NCBI RefSeq assembly: GCF_019740355.2
Contig: NZ_CP091819.1
Span: 806,001 to 870,000, forward strand
Length of the DNA: 64,000 bases
Direction of reading: 5' to 3'
Source: Paracrocinitomix mangrovi
GTDB taxonomy: Bacteria; Bacteroidota; Bacteroidia; Flavobacteriales_D; Crocinitomicaceae
Shown here: positions 14,258 through 23,048 of the stretch, piece after piece
Position numbering within the stretch: position 1 is the stretch's first letter
Layout of the letters: each line of letters begins with the position of its first letter
Made by a program: the position numbers and the translations under genes
Notes under the pieces: model-generated
Told to the model about the DNA's origin: nothing
The model's input: the letters and a program-made list of their open reading frames with translations, nothing else
Database searches by the model: none

Positions 14258-14290
14258 CAAATATATGAAATTAAATTACTTACACATCAA
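14258..14290 (-). promoter_or_regulatory. Promoter of the T9SS gene (TTG-N22-TATATTTG)
   Basis: On the minus strand TTG at 14290-14288 is followed after 22 bases by TATATTTG at 14265-14258, a full match to TAnnTTTG. The start codon lies 25 bases further on. The -33 element falls inside the last codons of the upstream 4Fe-4S gene. Confidence 0.55.
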
Positions 14291-15872
14291 TTTTAAAACC
14301 GTCGTTTCCTAAGACGATTGGGCCTTCATTTCCAAATCGACCCTCTTCAGGACCGTTTTCCAATTTAAGCACTCCTCTTGGGCAAACTGCTGCACAAACG
14401 CCACATCCTACACATGAAGAACGGACAATATTTTGTCCCTTTTGGGCATATGCACGAACATCAATTCCTTGCTCGCAGTAGGTTGAACAGTTTCCACATG
14501 AAATACATTGTCCACCATTTGTAGTAATTCTGAAGCGAGATTTGAATCTTTGAACAATTCCCATATATGCTGCCAACGGACAACCAAATCGGCACCATGA
14601 TCTATTACCTAATATTGGATAGAATCCTGTTCCAATAACACCTGCAAAGATGGACCCAATAAGGAATCCGTACCAACTACGAACATCATAAGCAGACAAG
14701 CCAAATAAGATATCCTTTCCGTCCATATCCGGATTATTGTACACATTGTAAGTGTGATAACCAGTATAGATTGTCATGATTACAGCAAATACAAGCACTC
14801 CGTTAATCAGCCATCTTTCTAATTTCCAAGTCCAAAGCTTTTTGTTAGACAATTGTCTGTAAGGATCTCCTAAAGTTTCTGCTAGTCCTCCACATCCGCA
14901 AACCCAACTGCAGTACCATCTTTTTCCAAAAAAGTAAACCATTACCGGAACTACGATAATTGACAAAATAATTCCCCAGAAGAAAAGAAACTTTCCAAAA
15001 TGACCACTGCTCAACAATTGCTGTACATTCCAATCAAATAGGAAATAATGGTCTAATGGCCAGGCATTTTTTAAATCTTTCGCAGGTAAATCAAACAATG
15101 GTAGAATCTCCACCATTAGGAAAGCAAAAATCAACTGAAACAATACTACTGTAATGGTTCTTACTACTTGATACTTATTGTGTCGGTACTTAATCAGCAT
15201 TCTGATTCCCATCACTATCATAGTAACGGTATACAAAAAGCCATACAAAAACCATTGTGAAGCTCCAGCCTCTGGATTAAACAAATGTTTAACCGGATCT
15301 ACAACATTGGTCAGATTGACAATGATATGCGGATTGAAATAAAGAAGGACGTAAAAGGATACCAACCATAAAAAAGTGACGATACCAATCCAACCTCTGT
15401 TTTGAGCAGCACTATGATATACTCCGTCATTCTTGATTCCAGCAGGTCCTAACAACTTTAAATCTTGATAGACATAGATTAACGCACCTAAAATTCCCAA
15501 TCCAAAAGAAAGGAAGAATAATAGTAATTTGTTATCTGCCACGAAGCCTGTAGTGGAAGCTTTGGCTAATTTGAATGCAAATTCTTTTTCTTGGGTATAC
15601 ATTACCTTATCCCACTCCTCATTTGCTTTTAGCTCTTCATTTTTAGTATTATAAATGTCAATTACTGCATTACCAAAAGCTGAAGAGGTTCCAAATTCAA
15701 CATCAATAATTTTCTCTTCAAAATCTGATTGTAAATTACCCAATTCCTGCTCACTCAATTGTTCAAGCATGATTTGCTCAGACATTTTAAAAGACCCCAA
15801 AAATGGAAGTGCAGTAAAAATTACTAATCCAAGCAAAAAGATGGCGAGTCCTATGTTTTTCAACAACTTCAT
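14280..15872 (-). CDS. NosR/NapH-like membrane protein with two 4Fe-4S clusters
   Basis: This 530-residue protein has about six membrane helices, an extracytoplasmic segment after the first helix, and two cysteine pairs of the NosR/PceC type (WYCSWVCGCGG and WCRFGCPLAAYMG, with Cys427 and Cys431 in the second). A C-terminal ferredoxin-like domain carries ligands Cys456/459/462/466 and Cys487/490/493/497 for two 4Fe-4S clusters. Members of this type pass electrons across or along the membrane to periplasmic reductases or maturation systems. It starts within the stop codon of the FAD oxidoreductase gene (ATGA overlap), so the two products probably act as one electron chain. The final acceptor is not encoded nearby. 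Confidence 0.85.
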   Translation of the reverse strand: MKLLKNIGLAIFLLGLVIFTALPFLGSFKMSEQIMLEQLSEQELGNLQSDFEEKIIDVEFGTSSAFGNAVIDIYNTKNEELKANEEWDKVMYTQEKEFAFKLAKASTTGFVADNKLLLFFLSFGLGILGALIYVYQDLKLLGPAGIKNDGVYHSAAQNRGWIGIVTFLWLVSFYVLLYFNPHIIVNLTNVVDPVKHLFNPEAGASQWFLYGFLYTVTMIVMGIRMLIKYRHNKYQVVRTITVVLFQLIFAFLMVEILPLFDLPAKDLKNAWPLDHYFLFDWNVQQLLSSGHFGKFLFFWGIILSIIVVPVMVYFFGKRWYCSWVCGCGGLAETLGDPYRQLSNKKLWTWKLERWLINGVLVFAVIMTIYTGYHTYNVYNNPDMDGKDILFGLSAYDVRSWYGFLIGSIFAGVIGTGFYPILGNRSWCRFGCPLAAYMGIVQRFKSRFRITTNGGQCISCGNCSTYCEQGIDVRAYAQKGQNIVRSSCVGCGVCAAVCPRGVLKLENGPEEGRFGNEGPIVLGNDGFKIDV

Positions 15873-17203
15873 GCGTTAGTAATTAGTTTTCGCCACCAGG
15901 TTTTAGGCTTTAGATCAACATTTTTGTGAGTTTCTTCCACAAACTTTTGAATGATATCTTTTTCGTAATGACTGTAGAATTCTGGATCAAAATTGGCTGT
16001 TTTAAGATTCGCCATCACTTCTTCAACTTTAGCTTGTCCTTTCAACCATTGATCAAAAAGTTGATGTCTCATTCTGATTCCAAATACATTGATTCCTTTA
16101 AATACTGATGTACTAGAATCCCAAACTATATGAAGTGCAATTTTACCTTTTGGATGCTCCCAATAAAAATCTTTTTCTCCTTCTTGCAACTTAGCAAACA
16201 CCCATCCATACGTTTGATACTCAATATCAAAAAACTTAGCTGAATTAAACCAAGGTCCGGGATTGTAAGCCATTTTATTACCACAAATTGTTTGGGCCAA
16301 TGTCTCTCCCATTATTCTACCGGTGTACCAAACTTGTTCAATATTTCTTCGGCCATTTACAGATTTTGTAAACTGAGCACAGTCTCCTATTGCATAAACA
16401 TCCTGAATATTGGATTCAAAATATTCATTAACAACCACTCCTCTATCAATCTGAATATTTGATTCTTTTAAAAAATTCACATTAGGAGTTACTCCTACAG
16501 TTAATCCTACTATTTGACAATCAATTTTTTCGCCATTTTGTGTGATCACAGCAGCAACATTTCCATTGCCATCATCAACAATCTCCTTCAACTCAGTGTG
16601 TAATCTTAATTTAGCGTGATGTTCCTTGATGTGTCTATTGATGAGCTCTCCATCTTTTTGAGGCAATACATTTCCCCAAAAGACAGATTCTCTCACTAAA
16701 AGAGTCACTTCAATTCCTCTTGAGATCATCATTTCTGCCATTTCAATCCCAATTAAACCGCCACCAACAATAACTGCTGATTTTGCCGTTTTGGAATTCT
16801 CTTCAAGCATTTCTAGATCCTGATAAGAATATAAGCCTTGAACACCATTCAGATTCTCCCCCGGCCAACCAAACTTATTTGGTTTAGAACCAGTAGCTAT
16901 GATTAATTTATCATAGTTAACAGACTGCCCTGATTTTAATTGTAGAGATTTAGTATCAGTATCAACCCTTTCAACATAATCAAACTTTAAATCAATTCTG
17001 TTTTTCTCCCAAAACCAATCTTCATATGGTTTAATATCTTGAAAACGCATATGTCCCATAAAGACATACATCAAAGCTGTTCTTGAAAAGAAATGTTCTG
17101 TTTCAGCTGAAATGATTAGGATTTCATTGTCACTGTTTTTTCGGATGTGTCTAGCTGCAGTAACACCTGCAATACCATTTCCGATTATGACAATTTTCTC
17201 CAT
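15869..17203 (-). CDS. FAD-dependent pyridine nucleotide-disulfide type oxidoreductase
   Basis: This 444-residue flavoprotein has the N-terminal FAD Rossmann motif GNGIAG (residues 8-13), the ATGSKP loop (residues 103-108), a second NAD(P)H-binding motif VGGGLIGIE (about residues 146-154), and the late FAD motif VYAIGDCA. No redox-active CxxxxC disulfide is seen, so it belongs to the NADH:ferredoxin/rubredoxin or NirB-like reductases rather than to the disulfide reductases. It would feed electrons from NAD(P)H to the membrane iron-sulfur protein encoded next, with which it overlaps by four bases. An inverted repeat lies in its leader. Confidence 0.88.
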   Translation of the reverse strand: MEKIVIIGNGIAGVTAARHIRKNSDNEILIISAETEHFFSRTALMYVFMGHMRFQDIKPYEDWFWEKNRIDLKFDYVERVDTDTKSLQLKSGQSVNYDKLIIATGSKPNKFGWPGENLNGVQGLYSYQDLEMLEENSKTAKSAVIVGGGLIGIEMAEMMISRGIEVTLLVRESVFWGNVLPQKDGELINRHIKEHHAKLRLHTELKEIVDDGNGNVAAVITQNGEKIDCQIVGLTVGVTPNVNFLKESNIQIDRGVVVNEYFESNIQDVYAIGDCAQFTKSVNGRRNIEQVWYTGRIMGETLAQTICGNKMAYNPGPWFNSAKFFDIEYQTYGWVFAKLQEGEKDFYWEHPKGKIALHIVWDSSTSVFKGINVFGIRMRHQLFDQWLKGQAKVEEVMANLKTANFDPEFYSHYEKDIIQKFVEETHKNVDLKPKTWWRKLITNA

Positions 17204-17284: not shown

Positions 17285-18016
17285 TTACCTAAGTCGTTGT
17301 TGTAAGAATTCCTCCGTTTTTATGATAGAAGCTCTATCCACTGCATACACAGTTAACTGAACCAAACCTCCACCAATTACTTTGATTTTAGCTTTTTCAT
17401 TCATAACAGCCCAAGGACACTCATACAACCATCTTTGCAAAAGAGGAGTAATTTCCTCAGCAGTTCTGTTTCCTACATTAAGATTTAGCTGTTCTGAATG
17501 CAACTTACCTTTTGCTTGTCGTTTGATAAAAATTTCGTTGTTCAGTTTTCTGAATGGGATGGTAATCAATTCTTCTTTGTCCGATTTAATCCTAATGTTT
17601 CTACTGTTTATTTCACTCAATGTGCCATTGTAGTTTTCAAACCTTACCGGATCATTAATTTTAAATTTATCTTCTAATCTGAAAGCTATCCCCGTTAAAA
17701 CATCACGCCAAATATTCCAGCCGGCGGTAATACTCAACACTACAATTGCTCCGGTTATATATAAACTGTCACTGAACAATTGATATAAGCCAAATACTAC
17801 GTAAATAACCCATGCAGCAACTTCAGCTCTGTACAAGATAACTGTCATTTTCTTTACTGCTTTTCTTGAACCTAAATAGGGTACTACATACTTTCTTGCC
17901 AGAAAAAAGAATGCATATAAAACAGCCCCGATTATCAATAAAAAGACAACCGTTTGAACAGATATAGTTCCTATCTGATTGGCGTTAATCGTTCTATTTA
18001 ATAAATCCGTGTTCAT
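17285..18016 (-). CDS. MscS-family mechanosensitive channel, short form
   Basis: MscS channels open on membrane tension and release osmolytes. This 243-residue protein has three hydrophobic segments (about residues 20-42, 66-82 and 86-107), the last running into the pore-lining helix and a beta domain with the family-type segment RLEDKFKINDPVRFENYNGTLSEI, then a C-terminal alpha/beta domain. It is shorter than the E. coli protein and divergent in its third helix. The gene overlaps the 3' end of the cotransporter-ATPase gene by 23 bases in another frame, which points to coupled translation and a joint role in volume or ion control. Confidence 0.85.
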   Translation of the reverse strand: MNTDLLNRTINANQIGTISVQTVVFLLIIGAVLYAFFFLARKYVVPYLGSRKAVKKMTVILYRAEVAAWVIYVVFGLYQLFSDSLYITGAIVVLSITAGWNIWRDVLTGIAFRLEDKFKINDPVRFENYNGTLSEINSRNIRIKSDKEELITIPFRKLNNEIFIKRQAKGKLHSEQLNLNVGNRTAEEITPLLQRWLYECPWAVMNEKAKIKVIGGGLVQLTVYAVDRASIIKTEEFLQQRLR

Positions 18017-21000
18017 TTAACCAATTTTCTACATAAGGTTTGGCGATAGGATCAATAAAATGGGCTTCACGTTCATTGACCTTTATTAATTTGGATTGTA
18101 ATAAAACATTTAATGTTCTGTCAATCCAGTTTTTGTGTTCCTTACCGTAAATTTTATAAAGTTCATTTTTTGTCAATCCATAATGGATCAACAATTGATA
18201 AATCAAATTCTTTAGTTCTACTCTTTCTATACCAGGAAATTCAATTCTCTTTGGTGCGCTAACAAATAAATCATTGTCTTCTTTTCTATCGATACTTGCT
18301 ACCCATTGAGACAAGGCTAAACCAACAACTCCATTAGATGTTGAATGGTATTTAGCTAAAAACTTTTGAATTTTTCCAATTGATAGATGTCTTTGACTTT
18401 CATCATTTATATGAGCAATAAGTCCACCGGTTTGATGTCTTGCCCAAATTGCGTCAACTATTTGCCTAGAATTAAGCGGTGCTAAAATAACTGATCTACT
18501 TACTACAGACTGAATATGTGTTGCATTTGAAATCAATTGATAAGAGTGGATATTGGCATTTAAAATGAAGTAATGCTTATGCCCAAACTGGTTAATCAGT
18601 TTGGCTAATTCATTGATTAAAATATCTCCATCCTTGGCCTTCATCCACCAACGTTCTAAATCCTGAAATACAAATGTTGATTTTTCAGGAATGGTATTCA
18701 TGATTACTTCAATAGATTCCTGTACACCTGTAGCTCTTTTAAAGGCTCTTAATAGATCTTCTTTTTTTCTTGTTTTATTGATAGGAGGATGCACATGATA
18801 AGTTTTTCCTTTTAACATGAAGTTAGCCACATGTGTAGTTAAAAAGGACTTACCACTTCCGGCAGATCCAAGAATCAATACCGCACCTCCTGCTCCTGAG
18901 TCAATTCGTTTAATGGCAGATTTAATATTCTCAATCTCCACTTTTCTATTCTCAATTCCTTTGCCCTCAGTAAATCCAACTGAAGTATACAATTGAAGAT
19001 AATAAAACGGCAATTCAGTTTTTGGCGAAACAGCATCCATGAAATCACCAATTATTCCCTGTTCAGAGATAGAAGTTCCAAACTTTCTTTTATATTCTGT
19101 TGCTGTAATATCTTGCTGCTTCTCTTTGAAATAAGCCAAACCTGACTTTAATGTGCCAATGATAGTTTTGTTAATAGCCTTTAAAGATTCCTTAATTCCG
19201 GATCTTCTTTTATGCTGTTTAACATACTGAGAAAGCGTATCAATCTTTTCAATAATCTGATTGATTTCCAGCTCTTTTCTCAAGCCTTCTCTCCTATCTC
19301 TTAATTCAATTTGAAAAGCATCCTTAGCCGTATGAATCCAGTTTTCACAATCGTCAATTTCATTTTTCGCCTTTAATATTGAATCTTTTAAAGGCTCTAA
19401 TTGCTCAGAGGTTGCAAAACTGTCTAATCCGGATTGTAACAGATTTGATGCATTCAGCATTTTACCAATTGACCTTTTTAATTGATCGTAGAATATCTGA
19501 ATTTGTTCATGAATTGGGTCAGCAAATTCTCTTTTAGTCAGATACTCAGCAATGTCTCTCAATCCAATTTGTTCAGTTTTTACATTCAATCCCTGAACGT
19601 CTCTAATTCCGTTGATAGATTGAGTAGTCATCATTACTAAATCTTCCGGAATCTTAAGTAAAGACTTCTCAATAGAATCTGCCAATTTACCAACTACTAA
19701 TTCAGAGTTTAAAAACACCTCTTCTGTTAGTTGAACATCAGTCGCGACAATCTCCTCTTTATTGTTTTTATCAATATTGGCTTCTAAAGCTGCTATTGTG
19801 CTTTTTAAAACTTCAATATTGTTGTTCAACCCTTTTAAATAGTTCAATTCAGTATAGTCTACAGCTTCATCAGAAAATTCTTGCAAACTAACTGAATAAG
19901 CCATCAACTGAACATCTGCTTTTAAGTGACCTGTGAAGATTTTAATATTTCGCTCCCAATAAGAAGGGAAAGAAATAAGTTCTTTTCGCAATGATTTGAT
20001 AACTGTAGGACCAGTTGCTGGATAAGTTTCTCCAAGAATTTTTAAGTACTTTTTTTGAAGTATGATATCGCTTAACTGATTGATATTTTCTCTCTCTTTG
20101 TTTCTAATTCTTCTGTAAAAATTAGCCGACAAATTGAGTGCATCCTCATCAATCTGTAATAAAGCTTTATCCAGTTTACTTTTTAGCTCAACTACCTTGT
20201 TTTTTAAACTCTCATTTTTTCTAATCGCCAGTAAAAAGTCCCAAATGATAGTGTGCAACAAATTTTTTGATTGATGCAATAGGATGATGTTTTGATATCC
20301 AAATTCTAAAAATTGATCATAAGACTCAAGGATTCCCTCAGAAAACCAAATACGTTGAACGGCGGCTCTAAATTTTACTTTTCTATTTACACTTTTCAGC
20401 TCATTGTGCTTATCATACATTAATGTAAGCGGAATTGATCCAGGCAAGTGATTAATAAAATCTTCTTTGTGCTTAACGTATAACTCTACATCTTTATCAA
20501 ATTCATCTGCCACTATTGACAATTGATTATCAGTAGCATCTGTAAGTACATTTTCAACTTTGTTTAAAGCAGCTATTAACTTTTTATGGATATCCACAAC
20601 AGCCAAATCATCTGATACTTCATCCAAAAAACCATCCATTATCTCAATTACCTGAGAAAATATGCGGTGATGGTAATTCTCAATTCGTTCTACAGAATTC
20701 TCGGTAAGATCTCTTAAAATCCTATTAAGTTGGATATCAAATTTATGTGCTAGCTCATTGAACTTCTCATCTTTACAATGATTCAATGGGATCACACTGG
20801 CCTCATCAATTGATTCAGTTTCTGCTTTGATATCAATGTGTTCAATTTTCAAATCAGTGACATCAAATTGAGATGAAGCCTTTACCAAAAGTGTAGTACC
20901 AATAGTCCTAACCAGACTGTTTGTTTCATTAACAAATTCTTTTACATCACTTTCTTCAATTTCAGGAATACCGACAAAAACCAAATCTGCTTCAGAAGAA

Positions 21001-23048
21001 TGAATTTTCATTAATTCATATAGCGGCTTCCTGTCTAGCTCATTATTAACAATTTTTATCTCTGCACCTACTCTAAATTGATCTAAAACATACTGAACTC
21101 TATTTTCAATAATCTTAAAATCAACATTGGTATCATTAACAATTAACACCCTTACCGTTGCTTGTGACCAATCAGGAGAAGATGTAATAAACTTAGCCAG
21201 CAACAACATTAATTCAGAGTTGTTACTCATTCCTCTCCACCACAAATCAATCTTTTCTTGTTTTCTAAATCCCCAACGCTCATCATAATCCAGGTATAAA
21301 ACATTGTAATCCAATTCGATTAATTTTTGCGTCATTTGGGTAAACCAAATTGGATGTTCTGTTTCACCGGGCCAGGCCATTAAAACAGTATTAGGTTCAA
21401 TTCCTGAAAAACCAAAGGTACAAGCGATAGATTCTATTCCTCTAAATGTGTTCTGAACCTCTAATTTTCTACCAAAAATCCCATACTTTTCAAGCTCCTC
21501 ATCCTTCACAGCTTCTTTACTTTTTGGGAATAGAACTGAGGCATTTTCATTTTCTGTCAAATCAAAGTTGGTTATGATTCCGTTTTGACCAGAAACAGAT
21601 TTAGAAAACTCAATCATTTTTGATCGATTCTTAGTACCTGTACTAAATAATAAGGTATTTGGCTTCCAGTTTCTTTTATGATCCTTAACGGCCTCCATTC
21701 TCTTCAACCCTTTTTTAACAATGGTTGACCAAACAGATTGCCATATATCCCCTGTTCCCAGCGCTACTTGTCTTCTGGATAAGTAATAAAAGATTCCAGT
21801 AATAATGATAATCGCAATGATCATGGCCAAAGCATTAAGCTGAGACATGATGAAGAAGGTGGTTATGAAACCAACTAAACCAACCCATTTTTTTACTTTG
21901 AATGTTGGGTTAAAATCTGAACTTGCCCAACTTTCAAGGAAAAATGAGAGATTAATAAATCCATAAGCTGCCAAATAGAACATTGACACAACCTCTGCGA
22001 TCACGTTTAAGTCTCCAATCAAAACTCCCGCTTCAGCAATTATTACTGTTAAGATTAAGGCATTTCTAGGTTCATTATCTTTCCCTACTCCTACAGCAAA
22101 AATGGAAGGTGTAATTCTATCTACAGACATAGCTTGTAGAATTCTAGGACCACCTAAAATACCGCCTAGCGCAGAAGACAATGTAGCTCCCCAAACTCCT
22201 CCAAAAACCAGAAAAGGCAACCAGGCCATATCAAAAATGGCATTGGGATTGGTGATTAAAGCTGTTTCATCTACCGCAAAATAAAGTACTACCGCCAACA
22301 ACATGTAGATTACAAAACCTACGGCTATTGCTCCCATTGTACCTATGGGAATAGATTTTTTAGGATCTTTTAAATCACCAGACATGGCAACTCCTGCCGT
22401 AAATCCTGTAACAGCAGGGAAAAATATTGTAAAAACAGCAGCTAATCCTACTTTGCCAACCATTGCTCCATCTTCTGCTAAAGGCTTAACTTCTGATCCG
22501 TCACCAAAAAATATAGAAATCAATGACAAACCAATTAATCCTAAAATGACAAACTGTGTTTTTAATGCAATGGATGTACTTATAAAGGCAATAATTGTCA
22601 AGAATAATAAACCTAAACTACCTGTCAATCTCAGGTTGTTGGCATAAGCCGGACCTCTGACTAATTCTCCAGCATCATTATGGATATATCCAATGTGAAA
22701 ATATTCATTAAAACTTTCAGCAAACCCCACCATATATAAGGATATACTCAAAGAGGTAGCCACAAATAGTGTTAAACCTAGTGCTCCACCAATTGGGAGA
22801 CCCAAACTTCTGGACAACACATAGTATACTCCACCTGCTCCAACTTTTTTATCTGTAGCAATTGAGGAAATACTTAAACCGGTAGTAATTGAAATTAGAT
22901 GAGCAAAGAGTATTACTCCAATAGTTCCAAACAAGCCGGCGTTACCAACAACCCAGCCCATCCTCATATACATGATCACACCAAGAATGGTGAGAATAGA
23001 GGGTGTAAACACACCTGCGAAAGTTCCAAACTTTTTAGGTTGCGACAT
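17994..23048 (-). CDS. SLC12-type cation-chloride cotransporter fused to a C-terminal AAA+ ATPase
   Basis: The product has 1684 residues. Residues 1 to about 423 are a 12-helix APC-superfamily transporter of the cation-chloride cotransporter kind (FGTFAGVFTPSILTILGVI, GGVYYVLSRSLGLPIGGALG). Residues about 430-760 match the cytoplasmic domain of SLC12 proteins, with IDLWWRG (Asp601, Trp603, Trp604) in place of the usual DxWWL hallmark and a late LVRTIGTTLLV segment. Residues about 770-1370 are helical and rich in Lys/Glu/Leu. Residues about 1380-1600 are an AAA+ ATPase: Walker A GSAGSGKS (Lys1400), Walker B FVFQDLE (Asp1463, Glu1465), sensor-like ILNAN. The C-terminus is winged-helix-like. Known bacterial and archaeal SLC12 homologues are far shorter, so the ATPase fusion is unusual. 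It overlaps the MscS gene. Confidence 0.9.
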   Translation of the reverse strand: MSQPKKFGTFAGVFTPSILTILGVIMYMRMGWVVGNAGLFGTIGVILFAHLISITTGLSISSIATDKKVGAGGVYYVLSRSLGLPIGGALGLTLFVATSLSISLYMVGFAESFNEYFHIGYIHNDAGELVRGPAYANNLRLTGSLGLLFLTIIAFISTSIALKTQFVILGLIGLSLISIFFGDGSEVKPLAEDGAMVGKVGLAAVFTIFFPAVTGFTAGVAMSGDLKDPKKSIPIGTMGAIAVGFVIYMLLAVVLYFAVDETALITNPNAIFDMAWLPFLVFGGVWGATLSSALGGILGGPRILQAMSVDRITPSIFAVGVGKDNEPRNALILTVIIAEAGVLIGDLNVIAEVVSMFYLAAYGFINLSFFLESWASSDFNPTFKVKKWVGLVGFITTFFIMSQLNALAMIIAIIIITGIFYYLSRRQVALGTGDIWQSVWSTIVKKGLKRMEAVKDHKRNWKPNTLLFSTGTKNRSKMIEFSKSVSGQNGIITNFDLTENENASVLFPKSKEAVKDEELEKYGIFGRKLEVQNTFRGIESIACTFGFSGIEPNTVLMAWPGETEHPIWFTQMTQKLIELDYNVLYLDYDERWGFRKQEKIDLWWRGMSNNSELMLLLAKFITSSPDWSQATVRVLIVNDTNVDFKIIENRVQYVLDQFRVGAEIKIVNNELDRKPLYELMKIHSSEADLVFVGIPEIEESDVKEFVNETNSLVRTIGTTLLVKASSQFDVTDLKIEHIDIKAETESIDEASVIPLNHCKDEKFNELAHKFDIQLNRILRDLTENSVERIENYHHRIFSQVIEIMDGFLDEVSDDLAVVDIHKKLIAALNKVENVLTDATDNQLSIVADEFDKDVELYVKHKEDFINHLPGSIPLTLMYDKHNELKSVNRKVKFRAAVQRIWFSEGILESYDQFLEFGYQNIILLHQSKNLLHTIIWDFLLAIRKNESLKNKVVELKSKLDKALLQIDEDALNLSANFYRRIRNKERENINQLSDIILQKKYLKILGETYPATGPTVIKSLRKELISFPSYWERNIKIFTGHLKADVQLMAYSVSLQEFSDEAVDYTELNYLKGLNNNIEVLKSTIAALEANIDKNNKEEIVATDVQLTEEVFLNSELVVGKLADSIEKSLLKIPEDLVMMTTQSINGIRDVQGLNVKTEQIGLRDIAEYLTKREFADPIHEQIQIFYDQLKRSIGKMLNASNLLQSGLDSFATSEQLEPLKDSILKAKNEIDDCENWIHTAKDAFQIELRDRREGLRKELEINQIIEKIDTLSQYVKQHKRRSGIKESLKAINKTIIGTLKSGLAYFKEKQQDITATEYKRKFGTSISEQGIIGDFMDAVSPKTELPFYYLQLYTSVGFTEGKGIENRKVEIENIKSAIKRIDSGAGGAVLILGSAGSGKSFLTTHVANFMLKGKTYHVHPPINKTRKKEDLLRAFKRATGVQESIEVIMNTIPEKSTFVFQDLERWWMKAKDGDILINELAKLINQFGHKHYFILNANIHSYQLISNATHIQSVVSRSVILAPLNSRQIVDAIWARHQTGGLIAHINDESQRHLSIGKIQKFLAKYHSTSNGVVGLALSQWVASIDRKEDNDLFVSAPKRIEFPGIERVELKNLIYQLLIHYGLTKNELYKIYGKEHKNWIDRTLNVLLQSKLIKVNEREAHFIDPIAKPYVENWLNEHGFIK

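Follow-up and report, generated by a model that had tools for sequence, protein, structure and literature searches.

What is an ATPase doing at the cytosolic end of a cation-chloride cotransporter, and why should the gene for such a fusion overlap that of a small MscS channel? This question is raised by a locus in our window, by which we mean the whole stretch of 64,000 nucleotides that was analysed (positions 806001-870000 of a 4.37 Mb single-contig genome). The original prediction described a 1684-residue ORF and an overlapping MscS gene, and both genes were found exactly where it had placed them (17994-23048 and 17285-18016, respectively). The same is true of the motifs that it named, namely IDLWWRG at residues 600-606 (W603, W604), GSAGSGKS at 1394-1401 (K1400), and D1463.

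The fused gene and its surroundings

The features of the locus, all on the minus strand, are as follows:

17994..23048 (-): fused gene, 1684 aa, encoding an SLC12/CCC transporter, cytosolic CCC domain, helical region, AAA+ ATPase and winged helix (ORF list, Pfam, PDB, AlphaFold2)
21609..23048 (-): transporter membrane domain, aa 1-480, predicted to be NKCC-like (Pfam, NKCC1 alignment)
20799..21608 (-): SLC12-type cytosolic domain, about aa 481-750, with IDLWWRG at 600-606
19029..20798 (-): helical region, about aa 751-1340, some 570 residues (structure model; Pfam, PDB and fold searches)
18249..19028 (-): predicted AAA+ domain, Orc1/Cdc6-like, about aa 1341-1600 (AlphaFold2, profile and fold search)
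18987..19013 (-): family motif LPFYYLQLY, aa 1346-1354, ahead of the P-loop
18846..18869 (-): Walker A GSAGSGKS, aa 1394-1401
18654..18677 (-): Walker B strand TFVFQDLE, aa 1458-1465
18423..18446 (-): family motif WARHQTGG, aa 1535-1542
17994..18248 (-): predicted C-terminal winged helix, aa 1601-1684 (AlphaFold2, profile match)
17285..18016 (-): small MscS channel gene, 243 aa (PF00924)
17994..18016 (-): 23 bp shared by the fused gene and the MscS gene

The source genome carries one copy of the fusion and eight MscS genes. The overlap spans the stop codon of the fused gene and recurs in 9 of 65 adjacent fused loci; in most fused loci, the two genes either overlap (by 1, 4 or 23 bp) or are only a few bases apart. 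In the lineage of the window, the flanks encode aconitase, OmpH, DUF4924, a flavoprotein and a ferredoxin-type protein, and show synteny with relatives. This housekeeping context is conserved within the genus as well as in several members of the family. The flavoprotein oxidoreductase and the ferredoxin-type protein (window 14280-17203) lie immediately 3' of MscS, a position kept in most of the genus and family relatives examined.

A scan of contigs from about 85,000 species returned 142 relatives of the ATPase part, 80 of which were kept. Together with the relatives found by other searches, they yielded 72-73 distinct fused proteins of similar size from Bacteroidota, Myxococcota, Gemmatimonadota and others. 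Nearly all complete fused relatives are single ORFs of 1600-1750 aa, and full-length single-ORF relatives were found at the level of genus, family, order and phylum. Crocinitomix catalasitica, Crocinitomix algicola and Lewinella cohaerens are among the named sources; further sequences come from drafts labelled Gemmatimonadetes, Ignavibacteriaceae, Neomarinimicrobiota, Chlorobi, Polyangiaceae and Proteobacteria, and such labels might be wrong due to mis-binning. A frame error, which the original prediction had named as a possible cause of the fusion, is ruled out by 72 distinct fused proteins, and so is an assembly join. The topology of the transporter tree (short search, arbitrary root) fits one gain of the fusion and at least two losses of the ATPase (L036; L034/L035), and the three loci concerned are also devoid of MscS.

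As for the transporter part, AA_permease (PF00324) covers residues 13-464 of the fused protein with an E-value of 4e-48, and the SLC12 C-terminal domain (PF03522) was matched at residues 596-684 below the curated cut-off (E 1e-4). Relatives in the PDB are KCC and NKCC structures, with E-values down to 7e-70. The NCBIfam model TIGR00930 gave an E-value of 1e-108, yet remained under the cut-off of that full-length model. A simple hydropathy scan counted 11 transmembrane segments in the window protein and 10-13 in its relatives, which is compatible with the usual 12 and with the 12-helix transporter originally proposed. We compared the ion sites with those of human NKCC1, using the positions given in PMC7889885. 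The counterparts of the Na+ site (L19, L22, A288, S291, S292), the K+ site (T20, I21, Y105, P211, T214) and the Cl- site (G23, V24, I25) are all in place, and the R29/E111 pair and Y362 are kept as well. Two backbone contacts of NKCC1 differ, N298 being replaced by Thr and W300 by Leu. Across 77 fused rows, the Na+, K+ and Cl- site counterparts are invariant or nearly so, including both serines of the Na+ site. Since these residues are conserved, Na+ coupling and a K+ site are predicted, and the transporter would thus be NKCC-like.

An ATPase family and its MscS neighbour

Profile search and structure prediction had been proposed for the ATPase part, and they lent support to the suggested AAA+ domain with a winged-helix end (residues 1340-1684). 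The AAA_16 match at residues 1368-1414 stayed under the Pfam cut-off (E 2e-6). However weak this match, the AlphaFold2 model of residues 691-1684 (mean pLDDT 84) shows a predicted AAA+ fold with a winged helix at the C-terminus, and its best PDB fold match in Foldseek was Cdc6/Orc1 2qby (E 5e-8). The window protein gave no NCBIfam ORC match, and one relative scored 16.7 bits vs. a cut-off of 181.3. Modelled alone, the helical region consists of confident long helices (pLDDT 87). No Pfam family matched it in the window protein, searching 53 relatives against Pfam returned only scattered single weak matches, the PDB profile search found only coiled coils and designed helices, and the fold search against the PDB gave nothing at an E-value under 0.04. 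On these searches we rejected the idea that the helical region is a known domain. All of the other parts are known folds or families.

A search with the AAA alignment revealed free-standing proteins of about 1000 aa, along with proteins of about 1500 aa, in Bacteroidota; family members also occur in 38 of the 141 sampled genomes from the phylum of the Polyangiaceae locus. The fused helical and AAA portions aligned with the free-standing ~1000-aa ATPases over 839 columns in hhalign (probability 100, E 5e-59). Such an alignment indicates that the fusion combines two entire proteins, an ATPase and a transporter, and, judging from sequence, the helical region and the AAA+ domain (with the winged helix) appear to be a complete family of its own, about 1000 aa long. 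The family is unnamed in the libraries that we searched (Pfam, NCBIfam and PADLOC). Its transporter part varies: some members have SLC12, some a CPA2 antiporter and some another 12-TM protein, while others have no transporter at all. In many ~1500-aa members, a CPA2-like antiporter is fused to the N-terminal end, as SLC12 is in our fusion. One Gemmatimonadota genome (G452) has three family members (L258, L259, L140): free-standing, CPA-fused and SLC12-fused. Two further members (L230:8062-12459 and L277:5753-9805) possess a 12-TM N-terminal domain that matched nothing in the PDB or NCBIfam; L230 adjoins TrkH and MscS, and L277 adjoins MscS and an antiporter.

The 243-aa product of the gene overlapping the fusion contains the MscS beta-domain PF00924 (E 3e-10, 40.7 bits vs. 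a cut-off of 20.2). A survey of gene order in relatives, suggested by the original prediction for Bacteroidota, showed that conservation of the pairing with MscS extends well outside this phylum. MscS adjoins the ATPase in 63 of the 73 distinct SLC12-fused loci and in 67 of the 76 other family loci, and it lies upstream (reverse order) in about 12 of these other loci. The same neighbour was found beside none of the 36 SLC12 genes that have no ATPase. As the family loci were retrieved via the ATPase sequence, and as some of the genomes are relatives of one another, the counts are not independent events. Since about 12-14% of family loci have no adjacent MscS, the channel may be dispensable there or encoded elsewhere. 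Among such loci are the SLC12-ATPase fusions L113, L123, L129, L134, L138, L150 and L160, from drafts labelled Bacteroidales or Chlorobi. Another locus (L108), where AAA and MscS read as one 702-aa ORF, was discarded as evidence, since it could just as well result from frame shifts in a draft assembly.

In the MscS tree, the window MscS falls among those linked to other members of the ATPase family, and is separate from the seven further MscS in its genome. The partners cluster largely by ATPase class, SLC12-fused ones composing one group and reverse-order ones another, with many long branches. Such a topology is supportive of a dedicated partner, but not decisive. Several loci are ordered ATPase, MscS, Na_H_Exchanger, and in another TrkH is followed by a 12-TM ATPase fusion and MscS. 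In Bacteroidota, L227, L203, L213 and L216 show an operon of a 10-TM protein, a CPA2-ATPase fusion, MscS and a 13-TM TrkH-type gene; in L227:3727-13005, TrkH and TrkA were confirmed by Pfam. One CPA2-fused operon encodes, in this order, a 414-aa membrane protein, CPA2-ATPase, MscS, TrkH and TrkA. Overall, what remains constant beside the ATPase is MscS, and what is exchanged is the transporter. The original prediction, which placed the ATPase on the regulatory side of the carrier, is supported in part: the fusion is real, but the ATPase is not a simple add-on to a carrier, since the channel stays and the carrier changes. An ion or osmotic role would fit the family, because its other members sit with CPA2 antiporters, TrkH and TrkA.

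What the ATPase may do

The Walker A lysine (K1400) is retained in 64 of 66 fused relatives, and the Arg of WARHQTGG in 63 of 66. The Walker B motif with Asp1463, as first proposed, was borne out in part: D1463 is present, but the strand ends in Q1462-D1463, Gln replacing the usual first Asp. Position 1462 is mixed among fused relatives (D/E/N/H/Q), and position 1463 is Asp in 55 of 66. Many free-standing family members have an altered Walker B region, and CPA-fused members have Asn at the D1463 position. This branch keeps Walker A but varies in Walker B, which is altered in its sister branches, and the pattern seems to favour a slow switch or sensor over a motor. Several free-standing members and most of the MscS-upstream group have lost the Walker A Lys, so that ATP hydrolysis cannot be needed in all of the family. 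In the loci with MscS upstream of the ATPase (L231, L232, L234, L235, L238, L240-L243, L246) this Lys is mostly replaced by Arg, and nucleotide handling may differ in this subgroup for that reason.

We lean, if only slightly, towards the view that the locus represents one branch of a widespread, unnamed AAA+/STAND-like ATPase family that works with a private MscS in ion or osmotic balance and is tethered here to an NKCC-like cotransporter. A bolder scenario is a multi-phylum control system, where the ATPase directly gates MscS, is combined with exchangeable transporters (SLC12, CPA2, TrkH), and exerts ATP-state control over uptake and release within one complex. Taken as a whole, we find this scenario finely balanced, with the scales tipping a little against it. 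In the view towards which we lean, the AAA+ domain would bind ATP and probably hydrolyse it slowly. The nucleotide state, perhaps together with a second signal arriving via the helical region or the winged helix, would alter the helical region, which might touch the cotransporter and the channel at their cytosolic portions; contact between the ATPase and MscS is suggested by gene order. In one state, uptake would be permitted and the channel held shut, and in the other, uptake would be restrained and the channel eased open. Being linked to an NKCC-like Na+/K+/Cl- cotransporter at its cytosolic end, the ATPase core would thereby set uptake against release.

A chaperone or assembly factor with a MoxR-like role, which serves to assemble or remodel the ring of MscS and the dimer of the transporter instead of switching them, is the alternative that survives best, although we regard it as unlikely. 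The Clp/ClpB profile matches of the AAA+ fold and the constant pairing with a membrane oligomer speak for it; nevertheless, a covalent 1:1 tether to the transporter would be odd for such a role, and Walker residues are altered in several subgroups. Less probable still is an abortive-infection immune device: on sensing infection, a STAND-like ATPase would open MscS, the effector that damages the membrane, and the transporter would be a mere membrane anchor. The AAA domain does show weak nSTAND, NACHT and NB-ARC similarity, with one NLR among its fold matches. However, the transport sites are fully conserved, the neighbours of other family members are ion transporters and not defence genes, and PADLOC gave no match for the window proteins and only weak mad8/mad3 matches in two relatives, none of them convincing. 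On this result and on the syntenic housekeeping flanks, we rejected a defence island as the context. We would rate just as low a pure scaffold, i.e., an ATPase that clusters MscS with the transporter as a structural linker and undergoes no nucleotide switching. The confident long helices and the replaced Walker A Lys in the MscS-upstream and several free-standing members would agree with it, yet the near-complete retention of this Lys in the branch of the window does not. Finally, it is very improbable that the ATPase energises the cotransporter and turns a secondary carrier into a primary ion pump: Walker A Lys and D1463 are largely conserved in SLC12-fused members, but the same ATPase occurs without any transporter and still with MscS, CPA-fused members have Asn in place of this Asp, and the intact Na+/K+ sites suit secondary transport.

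Comparison with known systems

We found no description of such an ATPase-MscS-transporter module in the open-access papers searched. Neither the combination nor the ATPase family was found in these papers or in Pfam, NCBIfam and PADLOC. For a large protein family that is unnamed in the searched libraries, our results supply likely partners. A conserved ATPase that nearly always lies beside MscS and swaps cation transporters suggests that many bacteria balance uptake and release by a nucleotide-controlled device, a question that is testable in cultured species such as Crocinitomix catalasitica and Lewinella cohaerens.

The window protein resembles SLC12 cation-chloride cotransporters (NKCC1, KCC; TC 2.A.30) in its membrane fold, a trace of the cytosolic domain and the ion-site residues. 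Unlike them, it has about 930 extra residues beyond the cytosolic domain, and an AAA+ ATPase was not reported for SLC12 members in the open-access literature examined. To our knowledge, bacterial SLC12 carriers are nearly unstudied. The window MscS shares membrane segments and the beta-domain with small-conductance channels (PF00924), but has a genetic link to one family of ATPases. Channels of the MscS type are usually seen as passive emergency valves and are not known to have an ATPase partner. With Orc1/Cdc6 and STAND ATPases, the window protein has in common an AAA+ core followed by a winged helix, 2qby being the best fold match; the long helical region in front, the transporter fusion and the MscS partner set it apart, and the gene context is not that of replication.

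CPA2 antiporters and TrkH/TrkA K+ systems likewise combine cation transport with cytosolic control, and they occur beside or fused to the same ATPase family. Their known control, however, relies on RCK/KTN domains or on nucleotides bound to TrkA, and not on an AAA+ ATPase with MscS. In the SUR1/Kir6.2 KATP channel, a nucleotide-binding protein sets the activity of an ion channel; this is an analogy only, as its proteins are unrelated to those of the window. The device that we propose would be comparable to the volume control that animal cells achieve through NKCC and KCC.
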